Below, one piece after another: positions 13,508 to 17,979 of a stretch of 36,557 nucleotides of DNA. Origin of the DNA: a bacterium (GTDB lineage Bacteria > Desulfobacterota_D > UBA1144); assembly GCA_002708105.2 (NCBI GenBank), contig PAOQ02000013.1:1-36557 (forward strand), given 5' to 3'. The position numbers and the translations under genes are program-made. The notes beneath the pieces were generated by a model. That model was given only the letters and a program-made list of their open reading frames with translations, was not told the origin of the DNA and made no database searches. Position 1 is the stretch's first letter. Every line of letters begins with the position of its first letter.

Positions 13508-14740
13508 TTAGCTACTTAAATCATAAGCTTTTTCACCATGTTCTGACTGATCTAACCCAACTTCCTCACTCTCAGATTCAACTCTAATAGGCACGATTGC
13601 TTTTACAATGATCACAATAATTGTTGTTATAACCAGTGTATAAATTCCGACGGATAGCACACCAAAGACCTGCTCATACCAACCAGCATGACCAAATACT
13701 GCAATAGATAGAGTACCTAGTATTCCCCCAAAGCCATGGACAGCAAAGACATCTAACGAATCATCAATATTAAATCTATTTTTGACCACTGAACACATCT
13801 CTTGACAAGCTATACCTGCAAAGGTTCCAATTAAAATTGCCTCTATAGGTGTAACAGAACCTGAAGCCGGAGTGATTGACGCAAGGCCTGCAATTGTCCC
13901 AGTTACAAGTCCAACCATAGATGATTTTCCGTATTTAAAGTATTCGTAGCCTGCCCAAGATAGTGAAGCTGCTGATGCAGAAAGATGTGTAACCAAAAGA
14001 GTAGTACCAGCACTTCCATTAGCAGCCAATTGAGATCCAGCATTAAAGCCAAACCAACCTACCCAAAGCATACAAGCTCCAATCATTACATAAGCAGGAT
14101 TATGAGGGGGTTTCGATGAATCTTTTCTACTTCCAAGAAAACATGCAATTACTAAAGCAGCCAAACCTGCGGTCTCGTGAACAACAAGTCCTCCAGCTAA
14201 ATCAACTGTACCAAGGTCCATTAAAAATCCACCACCCCAAACCCAATGAGTAACAGGCGCATAGCATAAAAGCATCCACAAAGCTGTAAAAATCAAAACA
14301 AAAGAAAACCTAATTCTTTCTACAAATGCACCAATAATTAAACCAGGTGTTATTATTGCAAAAGTCATTTGGAAAGATACAAAAACTGACTCTGGAATAG
14401 TTCCTGAAAGAACCATTGAATCCACACCAGATAAAAATGACTTTGTAAGCCCTCCCCAATAACTATTAAATCCTAATCCATCTCCAAACGCTATCGAATA
14501 GCCTGCAATAACCCATAAGATTGACATCAAACAAGCAACTGATATACATTGCATGAGAACTGATAAAACATTTCTAGACCTAACTAATCCTCCATAAAAT
14601 AAAGCCAAACCAGGTAATGTCATAAATAATACCAATGCGGTTGATGTTAAAATCCAAGATGTGTCACCAGAATCTATAGACGCATAACTGTTTAGTGGAA
14701 TAAATAAAATTGATAGAATAAAAATAAAAAGAATACTCAT
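13508..14740 (-). CDS. amt: Ammonium transporter, Amt family (first copy)
   Basis: Moves ammonium into the cell through an 11-helix trimeric channel. 410 residues. The first 20 form a signal-peptide-like segment, common in AmtB. The twin histidines of the pore are at His188 (AGGLVVHETAGLAAL) and His335 (DVFAVHGFGGILG). LVRSRNVLS, ERIRFSFV and GWFGFNAGSQL are family blocks. The C-terminal tail (VESESEEVGLDQSEHGEKAYDL) carries the conserved segment through which GlnK/PII blocks the channel. No glnK is adjacent. The ATG follows AGGAGT at 14746-14751. It has its own sigma-54-type promoter at 14832-14847, so it probably responds to nitrogen limitation. Confidence 0.95.
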   Translation of the reverse strand: MSILFIFILSILFIPLNSYASIDSGDTSWILTSTALVLFMTLPGLALFYGGLVRSRNVLSVLMQCISVACLMSILWVIAGYSIAFGDGLGFNSYWGGLTKSFLSGVDSMVLSGTIPESVFVSFQMTFAIITPGLIIGAFVERIRFSFVLIFTALWMLLCYAPVTHWVWGGGFLMDLGTVDLAGGLVVHETAGLAALVIACFLGSRKDSSKPPHNPAYVMIGACMLWVGWFGFNAGSQLAANGSAGTTLLVTHLSASAASLSWAGYEYFKYGKSSMVGLVTGTIAGLASITPASGSVTPIEAILIGTFAGIACQEMCSVVKNRFNIDDSLDVFAVHGFGGILGTLSIAVFGHAGWYEQVFGVLSVGIYTLVITTIIVIIVKAIVPIRVESESEEVGLDQSEHGEKAYDLSS

Positions 14741-14763: not shown

Positions 14764-14820
14764 ATAAGTAAAATCTCTATTTATATTTTTTTAAATATAT
14801 AATGCCTAGCTTTTACTTAT
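14764..14820 (-). promoter_or_regulatory. Inverted repeat in the amt (first copy) leader
   Basis: ATAAGTAAAA (14764-14773) and TTTTACTTAT (14811-14820) are exact inverted repeats, with a smaller TATATTT/AAATATA repeat inside. If transcription starts near 14821, the repeat forms the 5' end of the amt mRNA as a long AT-rich hairpin just upstream of the ribosome site. Could be a stability or translation element; no known motif. Confidence 0.4.
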
Positions 14821-14831
14821 GATTAGTTATT

Positions 14832-14847
14832 GGCAATTCGTGTGCCA
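14832..14847 (-). promoter_or_regulatory. Sigma-54-type promoter of amt (first copy)
   Basis: On the minus strand: TGGCAC, five bases, TTGC, with GG and GC 12 positions apart, the classical -24/-12 arrangement. The predicted start is near 14821, leaving a leader of about 80 bases. The site is also a dyad (TTGGCA-N7-TGCCAA). Confidence 0.75.
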
Positions 14848-14854
14848 AATAAAA

Positions 14855-14900
14855 AAAAGAACGGAAAAGCCCACGAAAGCTAGGAAACTAGGGCTTTTCC
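14855..14900 (-). terminator. Rho-independent terminator after amt (second copy)
   Basis: On the minus strand GGAAAAGCCC (14900-14891) pairs with GGGCTTTTCC (14872-14863); after GTTC comes a run of eight T (14858-14851). The stem of ten pairs and T run are textbook. It ends the transcript of the upstream amt gene, so the downstream one depends on its own promoter only 15 bases further. A second possible hairpin (GTAGC/GCTAC, about 14905-14930) lies between the stop codon and this terminator. Confidence 0.85.
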
Positions 14901-14954
14901 AGGAGGTAGCCATCAGATTTTAGATGCTACTCAAAGTAGGTTTATTTAATCTTT

Positions 14955-16244
14955 TTATTTAATTGTATATGCCTCTATACCAACTTCATTTTTATCAGAA
15001 CCTAACACCTCTTCTTCCTCACTAGGTCTAACTCCTATAGTAATTTTGAGTACCGACCATACTATTACCGAAACAATAAAAACAAAGACTACTACTGACA
15101 ATGCTCCAATAGTTTGAGTTAGAAACGATGTATCAGGGTTTGTTATTGCAACAGCAATTGTTCCCCAAATTCCAGCAATCAAATGAACGGGTAAAGCACC
15201 TACGACATCATCAATTTTTAAACTTGAAATAAATTGTGTACCAAGAACTGCTATCATGCCACCTACTCCACCAATCAACATAGAGCTATATGCTGTTGGC
15301 ATTAAAGGCTCAGCAGTAATTGAAACTAGCCCGGCCAAAGCTCCATTTAATGCAAAAGTAACATCAACTTTTCCATATAGTGTTTGTGACAAAATCATAG
15401 AAACTATCAAGCCAGCGCAAGCTGCTATGTTTGTGTTTACAAATATATTAGAGACTGCAACTGCATCGTCCATAGAACCGATTGCAAGCTGAGATCCGCC
15501 ATTGAAACCAAACCAACCTAACCAAAGTATGAATGTACCTAAAGTTGCTAATGGTATGCTAGATGCTGGAATCGGAGTAGATGTGCCATCTGAGGCAAAT
15601 CTTCCAATCCTCGGACCAATAATAATAGCACCAGCTAAAGCTGCTGCACCACCCGCTGCATGAACCAATGTAGATCCTGCAAAATCAGAGAATCCAATTG
15701 ATGCTAACCATCCTCCACCCCATTGCCATCCCATTTCTATTGGATAAATAATTCCAGCTAAAATTGCGGCAAAAATGAAAAAAGGCCATATTTTTATTCT
15801 TTCTGCTATTGTTCCAGATACTATTGAAACTGTAGTTGCACAAAAAACCATTTGGAAAAACCAGTCTGAATGTGCCGAATATCCAGTCGCTATATCTTCA
15901 ACAGCAGTAAAGGATGTAAAGCTACCCATATATCCGCCTTCTGATATTCCATAAGCTAAATTGTATCCAACTATGTAAAACATAATCCCTGAAATTGAAT
16001 ATAGACCTACGTTTTTTAAACAAATTGTGGAAACATTTTTTGATCTAACCATACCGGATTCCAACATAGCGAAACCAGCGGCCATCCACATGACTAGAAA
16101 ACCACATATCAAAAATAATAATGTATTGAAAATAAATGCAGTTTCATCCGGTGAACTGGATGCAGAAGCACTATTAACTGAAAAAAGCGATAAGATTGAC
16201 AAAAAAACAAAAGTGAAAAAATTTTTTACTTTATTTTTAAACAT
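14955..16244 (-). CDS. amt: Ammonium transporter, Amt family (second copy)
   Basis: 429 residues. A cleavable-looking signal segment (to about residue 28, ending VNSASASS) precedes 11 predicted helices. Pore histidines are in DFAGSTLVHAAGGAAAL and GALPVHLIAGIWGT; MVRSKNVST, ERIKIWPF and GWFGFNGGSQLA are also typical. The C-terminal tail EEEEVLGSDKNEVGIEAY keeps the GlnK contact motif. It differs from the first copy throughout, so this is not a recent duplication; two Amt paralogues of different subtypes sit in tandem. GGAGG lies at 16252-16256 before the ATG, and a sigma-54-type promoter at 16281-16296 gives a leader of about 26 bases. Its transcript ends at the terminator 14855-14900. Confidence 0.95.
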   Translation of the reverse strand: MFKNKVKNFFTFVFLSILSLFSVNSASASSSPDETAFIFNTLLFLICGFLVMWMAAGFAMLESGMVRSKNVSTICLKNVGLYSISGIMFYIVGYNLAYGISEGGYMGSFTSFTAVEDIATGYSAHSDWFFQMVFCATTVSIVSGTIAERIKIWPFFIFAAILAGIIYPIEMGWQWGGGWLASIGFSDFAGSTLVHAAGGAAALAGAIIIGPRIGRFASDGTSTPIPASSIPLATLGTFILWLGWFGFNGGSQLAIGSMDDAVAVSNIFVNTNIAACAGLIVSMILSQTLYGKVDVTFALNGALAGLVSITAEPLMPTAYSSMLIGGVGGMIAVLGTQFISSLKIDDVVGALPVHLIAGIWGTIAVAITNPDTSFLTQTIGALSVVVFVFIVSVIVWSVLKITIGVRPSEEEEVLGSDKNEVGIEAYTIK

Positions 16245-16280
16245 TTTTTAACCTCCAAGATTTACTATTACTTTGGAGGT

Positions 16281-16296
16281 GGCAAAATTTGTGCCA
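16281..16296 (-). promoter_or_regulatory. Sigma-54-type promoter of amt (second copy)
   Basis: On the minus strand: TGGCAC, five bases, TTGC, with correct -24/-12 spacing. Predicted start near 16270, then GGAGG and the ATG at 16244. As at the other copy the site is a dyad (GTGGCA-N7-TGCCAC). It lies about 50 bases from the divergent acyl-CoA synthetase start. Confidence 0.75.
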
Positions 16297-16344: not shown

Positions 16345-17979
16345 ATGACTTCTGAAATTCAGACATTAAAAAACTTATATGAATTAATTGAAATTTCATC
16401 ATCTAGGTTTCCTGATAGAGTTGCATTATCCGAATATAAAAATAATCAAATTATCGCCTTAACATACTCCGAGCTGCTATATGCAATAGAAAAAAAAAGC
16501 AATGAAATAAGCAAGTTAGCTATTCCTAAAGGATCAAATATAGCTTTGTCTGGCGCAAACTCGATCAATTGGGTAATAACTTTCTTTTCAATATTAAAGG
16601 TTGGCCATATCGTAGTACCAATCGACTCAAAAATGAACCAACAGGGTATGGAATTTATTTTAAATTTTACAAATACGCAACTTTTTATTGTTGATAATGT
16701 TTCTAGTATTAAAATTTCAGATAAATTTAAAACAATCATTCAAGAAATGGATCATGTTTTAATAAAATTAGAAGCAGAAGAAAACAAAAACCTTCAGTCT
16801 ACTATTCTATTAAAGAATGTAACAAATATTAATGAAGAAGAAAAAAATGATGTTGCACAAATCCTTTTTACCTCTGGAACAACAGGTGAGCCTAAAGGGG
16901 TGGTTCTTACGCATAAGAATATTTTATCAAATATTAAGGATATTCATGAAATCTTGCCAACAAAGAACTATGAAAAATCTTTTTCCATCCTCCCTCTTCA
17001 TCATGTCTATGAATTAACATGTAGTCTTTTGCATAATCTTAGCAAAGGCAACTCAATACATTTTTGCTCAAAAATAGACTTAGTAACTATGGTTAGAGAA
17101 ATGAAAATAATAAAACCTACAATATGGCCAGTCGTACCATTGATTCTAGAGAAAATATATAAAAATATTAATAAAAACGTTTCCAAATCTCTAATTCAGA
17201 AAATATTACTTAAGTTTGCTCCAAAACTTTTTGGCTATATCTTAAGAAAAAAACTAGGCCTTAAAGAACTTGGACTTCTTTTAAGCGGTGGAGCAGCATT
17301 AAACACTACGGTTGAAAAATTCTTTAAAGATATTGGCATGACCGTCACTCAAGGCTACGGACTATCTGAGGCTTCCCCTCTAATATCCGTAAACCCTCTT
17401 GGGAATGAGAGGATAGGCTCTGTTGGAAAAATAATAAAATCTTGTGAGGTAATAATAGAGAATAAAAATAGCTTAGATCATGGAGTGATTACAGTTAAAG
17501 GACCAAATATTTTTAGCGGGTACTATAAAAATAAAGAATATTCTAATCAAATTCTTAAAAATGGCTGGTTAAATACTGGCGATATAGGATATATGGATAG
17601 TGACGGATATCTATACATAACTGGAAGAGATAAATTTGTAATAGTTAATAAAGGAGGTAAAAATATTTATCCTGAAGAAATTGAAGAATTTTTTTCATCC
17701 TCAAGTTTTATAAAAGATATTATAATTTTTAGTAACGATGACGAGAATATCATTGCTCTCATACGACCTGATGATGAACTATTTGAGAAGGAATCTATAG
17801 ATACAATAAAAAAAATAGTTTATGAAAGTTGCTTAGAAGTTAATCAGAAGCTTGAAGGCTACAAGAGAATTAAAGAAATTTACATAACAAATAAAGATTT
17901 TGAAAAAACATCGACACAAAAAATAAAAAGATCTTTTTTAAAAAATATTAATTTATCTGAATATATTTCAGCAAAATAA
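16345..17979 (+). CDS. AMP-forming acyl-CoA synthetase (probably long-chain)
   Basis: Activates a fatty or related acid to its adenylate and then to the CoA thioester. 544 residues. The AMP-binding P-loop TSGTTGEPKG lies at 176-185, GYGLSEASPL is the adenine-binding motif, NTGDIGYMDSDGYLYITGR the hinge region, and the catalytic lysine is probably in KTSTQKIKR near the end. The overall shape is closest to FadD/long-chain synthetases. I start at ATG 16345 rather than an upstream TTG, which would lie within the amt promoter. It ends 12 bases inside the convergent DUF3891 gene. Exact substrate is not predictable; an electron-transfer flavoprotein at 8975 fits a role in fatty-acid use. Confidence 0.88.
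   Translation: MTSEIQTLKNLYELIEISSSRFPDRVALSEYKNNQIIALTYSELLYAIEKKSNEISKLAIPKGSNIALSGANSINWVITFFSILKVGHIVVPIDSKMNQQGMEFILNFTNTQLFIVDNVSSIKISDKFKTIIQEMDHVLIKLEAEENKNLQSTILLKNVTNINEEEKNDVAQILFTSGTTGEPKGVVLTHKNILSNIKDIHEILPTKNYEKSFSILPLHHVYELTCSLLHNLSKGNSIHFCSKIDLVTMVREMKIIKPTIWPVVPLILEKIYKNINKNVSKSLIQKILLKFAPKLFGYILRKKLGLKELGLLLSGGAALNTTVEKFFKDIGMTVTQGYGLSEASPLISVNPLGNERIGSVGKIIKSCEVIIENKNSLDHGVITVKGPNIFSGYYKNKEYSNQILKNGWLNTGDIGYMDSDGYLYITGRDKFVIVNKGGKNIYPEEIEEFFSSSSFIKDIIIFSNDDENIIALIRPDDELFEKESIDTIKKIVYESCLEVNQKLEGYKRIKEIYITNKDFEKTSTQKIKRSFLKNINLSEYISAK

Follow-up and report, generated by a model that had tools for sequence, protein, structure and literature searches.

The two tandem ammonium transporter genes analysed here are very probably each transcribed from a sigma-54 promoter of their own, within a small nitrogen regulon in which the palindrome covering the promoters does not seem to be a separate operator and the activator probably works free of enhancers. 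Both genes lie on the minus strand of the window, by which we mean the whole stretch of 36,557 nucleotides that was analysed, and both open reading frames downstream of the promoter elements match PF00909 (Amt). The amt1 gene (13508-14740) encodes an ammonium transporter of 410 aa that scores above the TIGR00836 cut-off, and amt2 (14955-16244) one of 429 aa and of the 'marine subtype', above the cut-off of TIGR03644. A sequence-only reading of this DNA had placed TGGCAC-N5-TTGC with exact spacing upstream of both genes, and the motif is confirmed on the minus strand, as TGGCACACGAATTGC at 14833-14847 for amt1 and as TGGCACAAATTTTGC at 16282-16296 for amt2, each with exact GG-N10-GC spacing; the intervals given by that reading, 14832-14847 and 16281-16296, begin one base sooner because they include the following C. 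The window holds two matches to this motif compared to 0.02 expected from dinucleotide shuffles, none of which reached two, and both elements are kept at the orthologues. From the position of the -12 element, transcription is predicted to start at about 14821 for amt1 and at about 16270 for amt2. The proposal that the two elements are sigma-54 promoters is supported, and both are predicted to be active.

The DNA upstream of the amt2 promoter is the start region of a divergent AMP-binding (acyl-CoA ligase-like) gene (16345-17979, plus strand). Just 5' of the predicted amt2 start, ACCTCCAA (16273-16280, minus strand) can pair with TTGGAGGT (16251-16258) at the Shine-Dalgarno sequence, so that only transcripts begun further upstream would have the ribosome site masked; this pairing is absent at the amt2 orthologues of four relatives (G001-G004).

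The strong terminator that had been claimed to separate the two transcripts is real. An intrinsic terminator of amt2 occupies 14851-14900 on the minus strand, with a 10-bp stem at 14863-14900 enclosing an 18-nt loop, followed by a T run at 14851-14858. The amt2-amt1 intergenic stretch folds with z = -2.93, no shuffle folding equally well, and the stem carries compensatory changes in relatives. A simple terminator scan missed this structure, since its 18-nt loop is above the loop limit of the scan. We infer that amt1 and amt2 are transcribed separately, each from its own promoter. Directly before the terminator, the amt2 3'UTR contains an element (14901-14932, minus strand) in which a GAGTAGCATC..GATGGCTAC hairpin is followed by TACCTCCT, and the stretch 14851-14932 (minus strand) thus holds, in that order, a GUAGCA-type hairpin, an anti-Shine-Dalgarno-like (U)ACCUCCU and the terminator. 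The same arrangement is found in G001 and in the G008 copy, and partially in G003, G004, G006, G009, G012 and G013. It is possible that a 3'UTR-derived small RNA is made here, comparable to GlnZ, the sRNA from the glnA 3'UTR (PMC9731577); both come from the terminator-bearing 3'UTR of a nitrogen-regulated mRNA, although their sequences are unrelated and the amt2 element is known from DNA alone. In addition, the terminator loop (14863-14900, minus strand) contains a word, CCTAGCTTT, whose complement AAAGCTAGG lies in the amt1 leader (14805-14813), a match that is longer in G001 and in the G008 copy, while G004 has the leader word alone, and RNA pairing between the loop and the leader is a possibility. 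Around the amt genes no known RNA family was matched even at E<=1.

The machinery that such promoters require had been proposed as a check, and rpoN, an NtrB/NtrC-type pair and a P-II gene are all present, one of each, in the window's genome (0.91 Mb, 88% complete). The kinase gene adjoins the gene of the full sigma-54 activator, and the P-II protein matches PF00543 above the cut-off, its T-loop reading GAEY with the conserved Tyr. In a comparison set of 14 family genomes, of about 0.8-1.1 Mb each, exactly one RpoN was found in every genome, always with the helix-turn-helix (HTH) and the RpoN box intact (HESTISRITSNKY and ARRTIAKYR-type motifs). Every one of the 14 also encodes one full NtrC-type activator with a GAFTGA loop, a count from which weaker, partial AAA+ matches were left out.

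A genome scan for sigma-54 sites, likewise proposed beforehand, found them clustered at nitrogen genes. The only match to the strict motif beyond the window lies upstream of P-II, and the strict palindrome TGGCA-N7-TGCCA is found at three sites of the genome, at amt1, at amt2 and upstream of P-II. The relaxed TGGYAY-N5-TTGC has ten matches in the genome, which are intergenic only before amt1, amt2, P-II and a porin gene; the remaining matches to it and to TGGCA-N7-TGC, the porin site excepted, proved on inspection to be in coding sequence. A reversed-pattern control for the relaxed motif is biased, as it holds CG and CGTT, which are rare in this AT-rich genome, and it was set aside as an estimate of chance. 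The fourth site, TGGTATGGGAATTGCCAT (L251:1342-1356, corresponding to G000:C8:17841-17855), is of the TGGTAT version and lies 51 bp before a BBP2 porin gene, itself downstream of an MFS gene. The list of members rests on strict motifs and on the genome at its 88% completeness.

Across the 14 family genomes, TGGYAYR-N4-TTGC is kept at 47 amt, P-II and porin sites. The 34 amt/P-II promoters read TGGCA[CT]-N5-TTGC, a count that selects on the core, with four of 38 genes, all downstream amt copies, having no site. The porin site is kept in 13 genomes, and all 13 promoters read TGGTA[CT]-N5-TTGC, so that the base at -23 is C at every amt/P-II site versus T at every porin site. Together with leader length this difference may set the strength of each gene; that it is gene-specific is left unexplained by our best explanation and counts against it. 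Beyond the core, 40 of the 47 sites have C at -11 (1.87 bits), and the preference for A at -10 is weak (0.43 bits).

Several loci of the family depart from this pattern or add to it. Three of the four genes lacking a site, the amt1 genes of G003, G006 and G009 (L053, L055, L056), have lost it together with their normal 5' end, which is truncated or rebuilt; in G006 and G009, TATTATCTTTGA or a near variant stands before the ATG that opens the frame, possibly a leaderless constitutive start. In seven family genomes (L252, L182, L183, L184, L212, L217, L225) sigma-54-like sites precede a circularly permuted ATP-grasp gene (PF14403); the same pattern gave no site before such a gene in the genome of the window. 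In Pseudomonas putida, a gene of this type is up on nitrate relative to ammonium (PMC8050072). The P-II leader (L013:1424-1500) contains in most genomes a well conserved TATGTCATAATAT-like block that resembles an extended -10, a possible second P-II promoter of the sigma-70 type. Further upstream (L013:1515-1700) the 3' end of an acyl-CoA ligase gene (..GCTAGAAAATAAT..) occurs twice, the copies flanking what is left of the end of a beta-barrel gene. Elsewhere in the class, the P-II promoters identified in other families mostly read a near-invariant TGGTATGTT[G/C]TTTGCA lacking the dyad, and no sigma-54 site was seen at the twelve P-II loci inspected in a large genus of the class (g6, L140-L166).

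The activator is less conventional than its promoters. It has receiver and sigma-54 AAA+ domains with a GAFTGA loop, and its best match of all is the NtrC equivalog of NCBIfam (TIGR01818), at 452.3 bits against a cut-off of 558.6. Of the 'nitrogen-type activator' expected from the sequence-only reading, the NtrB/NtrC-type pair is thus present, but the protein falls short of the equivalog cut-off and has a degenerate DNA-reading helix. Mean identity within the family is 66% in the receiver, 73% in the AAA+ domain and 38% in the recognition half of the HTH, which usually lacks arginines in the 14 members. HTH_8 was detected in two of the 14 at E<0.1, and the window's protein reaches 13.5 bits, under the cut-off of 22, compared to 51.8 bits for E. 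coli NtrC as a control. Judged by these profiles, the C-terminal Fis-type HTH is degenerate in the sole full activator of each genome.

Nor did a partner for such a domain appear in the DNA. An NtrC-like dyad, GCAC-N4-9-GTGC, was absent within 220 bp upstream of the four promoters of the window's genome, while in E. coli the same scan found GCAC-N-GTGC before both glnA and glnK. Likewise, no upstream dyad is shared among the 34 amt/P-II promoters of the family, a scan that would pass over any enhancer peculiar to the lineage that lacks palindromic arms or lies more than 220 bp away. ATAATTTTTTAT, common to three upstream regions, was considered as an enhancer and rejected, as at P-II it coincides with the ...YNFLF-stop with which a beta-barrel gene, intact in relatives, ends, and it is also under the shuffle maximum.

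As the HTH is degenerate, no enhancer-like dyad was seen and many promoters lie within tens of bases of an upstream stop codon, activation is likely to be enhancer-independent, by analogy with FlgR of Helicobacter, CtcC of Chlamydia and Rrp2 of Borrelia (PMC3162934, PMC7482065, PMC3037356). Like the activator described here, these are the sole full-length sigma-54 activators of small genomes and have no recognisable enhancer. In the three known proteins, as seems to be the case here, specific DNA binding is absent or non-functional; in the present activator, however, the HTH fold is predicted to persist, the targets are nitrogen genes and enhancer independence is likely rather than established. 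In its fullest form the proposal states that the whole sigma-54 regulon of the family is addressed by sigma-54 alone, the activator having retained its switch and motor but lost its sequence-specific reading of DNA, the enhancers having gone and the -12 element having gained the C at -11, and this we put forward tentatively, at somewhat less than even confidence.

Best placed among the competing explanations, although we regard it as unlikely, is that the activator still binds enhancers, whose sites have in each species diverged in step with its recognition helix and are too weakly palindromic for the scan. AlphaFold2 predicts a three-helix Fis-like domain at the C-terminus with pLDDT of about 81-91, in a model built from 14 sequences only with a mean pLDDT of 70.6 and a pTM of 0.43, and according to this model the HTH may bind DNA in an altered way that scans miss. 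The first HTH helix is partly conserved, and the fall in pairwise identity from 0.73 in the AAA+ domain to 0.38 in the recognition half would fit such divergence. However, no upstream dyad is common to the promoters of one genome or to orthologues, the closeness of many promoters to an upstream stop codon speaks against it, and the longest shared upstream words (12-13 bases) consist of A/T only and are below the shuffle maximum of 14.

We return to the palindrome, for which the simpler account in terms of sigma-54 also appears sufficient. The dyad TGGCA-N7-TGCCA covers the amt1 element at 14831-14847 and the amt2 element at 16280-16296, two full dyads in the window compared to 0.03 expected from shuffles. 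Their outer pairs are as the sequence-only reading gave them, T/A at 14830/14848 and G/C at 16279/16297. Beyond the sigma-54 core the dyad requires only the C at -11 and the A at -10, and these dyad-only positions vary (TTGCAT, TTGCCT, TTGCCG), while every core base is invariant. Reviews of sigma-54 promoters give A or T at -11. The class relatives have A at this position, so the C is unusual, which leaves some room for an additional reader at amt and P-II, and a literature search for TTGCCA with sigma54 returned nothing relevant. Since sigma-54 holds the early-melted DNA of the closed complex at -12/-11 (PMC3844500), a sigma-54-based role for the C is plausible. The palindrome is therefore best read, from the pattern of conservation, as the -24 TGGCA and a lineage-typical extended -12 element TGCCA that are by chance reverse complements, its palindromic look probably being incidental to the way the sigma-54 of this lineage recognises DNA; the simplest reading of the comparison is that the extended element arose within the window's family.

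The idea that a regulator with twofold symmetry overlaps the promoters is not supported. In this alternative a dimeric repressor or co-activator would read TGGCA-N7-TGCCA over sigma-54 at the amt and P-II genes and add a further level of control by nitrogen or carbon, which we consider quite improbable. It has in its favour that 24 of the 34 amt/P-II sites are full 5-bp dyads, that the C at -11 is missing from the P-II promoters of most site-bearing relatives of the class and hence arose in the family, and that BosR at Borrelia rpoS is a precedent for an additional DNA-binding protein at such a promoter (PMC3037356). Nevertheless, the two arms are not conserved jointly: the right half TTGCCA persists at the porin promoters of 8 of the 13 genomes in spite of a TGGTA left half, and the dyad is lost through its right arm at amt1 of G001, which belongs to the window's own genus, and at both G005 sites. 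The outer pair is a mismatched T..T at P-II, the third strict site of the genome, and over the 24 full dyads it is complementary in 11 compared to 7.4 expected (p=0.06, not significant); pairing does not extend inward, and no candidate regulator was found. That the palindrome marks a sigma-54 promoter working in both directions, and so drives the divergent AMP-binding gene at 16345 as well, is the least probable of all and was rejected, for although GG-N10-GC is present on both strands of each dyad and amt2 does have a divergent neighbour, the base at -21 is always a pyrimidine (C/T), making the opposite-strand -15 always G/A as against T on the forward strand in 34 of 34 sites, and the amt1 and P-II dyads have no divergent gene.

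Taking sigma-54 itself as the reader of these sites, the regulon would comprise amt1, amt2, the single P-II gene and the BBP2 porin gene, joined in some relatives by the circularly permuted ATP-grasp gene. Nitrogen limitation would act by way of P-II and an NtrB-type kinase that phosphorylates the genome's only sigma-54 activator, and the activated AAA+ ring would then open RNA polymerase-sigma-54 poised at TGGYAYR-N4-TTGC, at all sites at once, with the terminator past amt2 keeping the amt transcripts apart. As the activator HTH lacks its family signature and no upstream dyad was seen, the choice of targets is probably made by sigma-54, the activator having no dedicated enhancer. The arrangement recalls the glnKp-amtB and glnAp2 promoters of E. 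coli, which share the TGG-N9-TGC core with exact -24/-12 spacing before P-II and ammonium transporter genes as well as RpoN, NtrB/NtrC-type proteins and P-II in the genome. In E. coli there is one glnK-amtB operon, whereas here amt1, amt2 and P-II have separate promoters, with an extended -12 element, TTGCC(A), and with no NtrC-type dyad visible upstream. Similarly, the activator shares with NtrC (NR-I) regulators the receiver, the AAA+ domain with GAFTGA and, in the window's genome, the adjoining kinase gene, but differs from them in its score of 452 bits, below 558.6, and in a Fis-type HTH that goes unrecognised.

Apart from two odd traits, the extended -12 element and the degenerate activator HTH without visible enhancers, we regard this sigma-54 nitrogen regulon as ordinary; the genome that carries it is unusually small. 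The extended element carries a warning for dyad-based operator prediction, as a conspicuous promoter palindrome can be the by-product of two sigma-54 contacts, and the sharp 15-base sigma-54 address makes relatives open to scanning. A complete yet tiny sigma-54 nitrogen regulon of two amt genes, P-II and a porin survives in a streamlined genome. If the activator is truly enhancer-free, these genomes would amount to a minimal sigma-54 system provided by nature and to an evolutionary series for the joint loss of enhancers and of the activator's DNA-binding domain; promoter choice would have shifted from the activator to the extended -12 element, giving a streamlined nitrogen switch.
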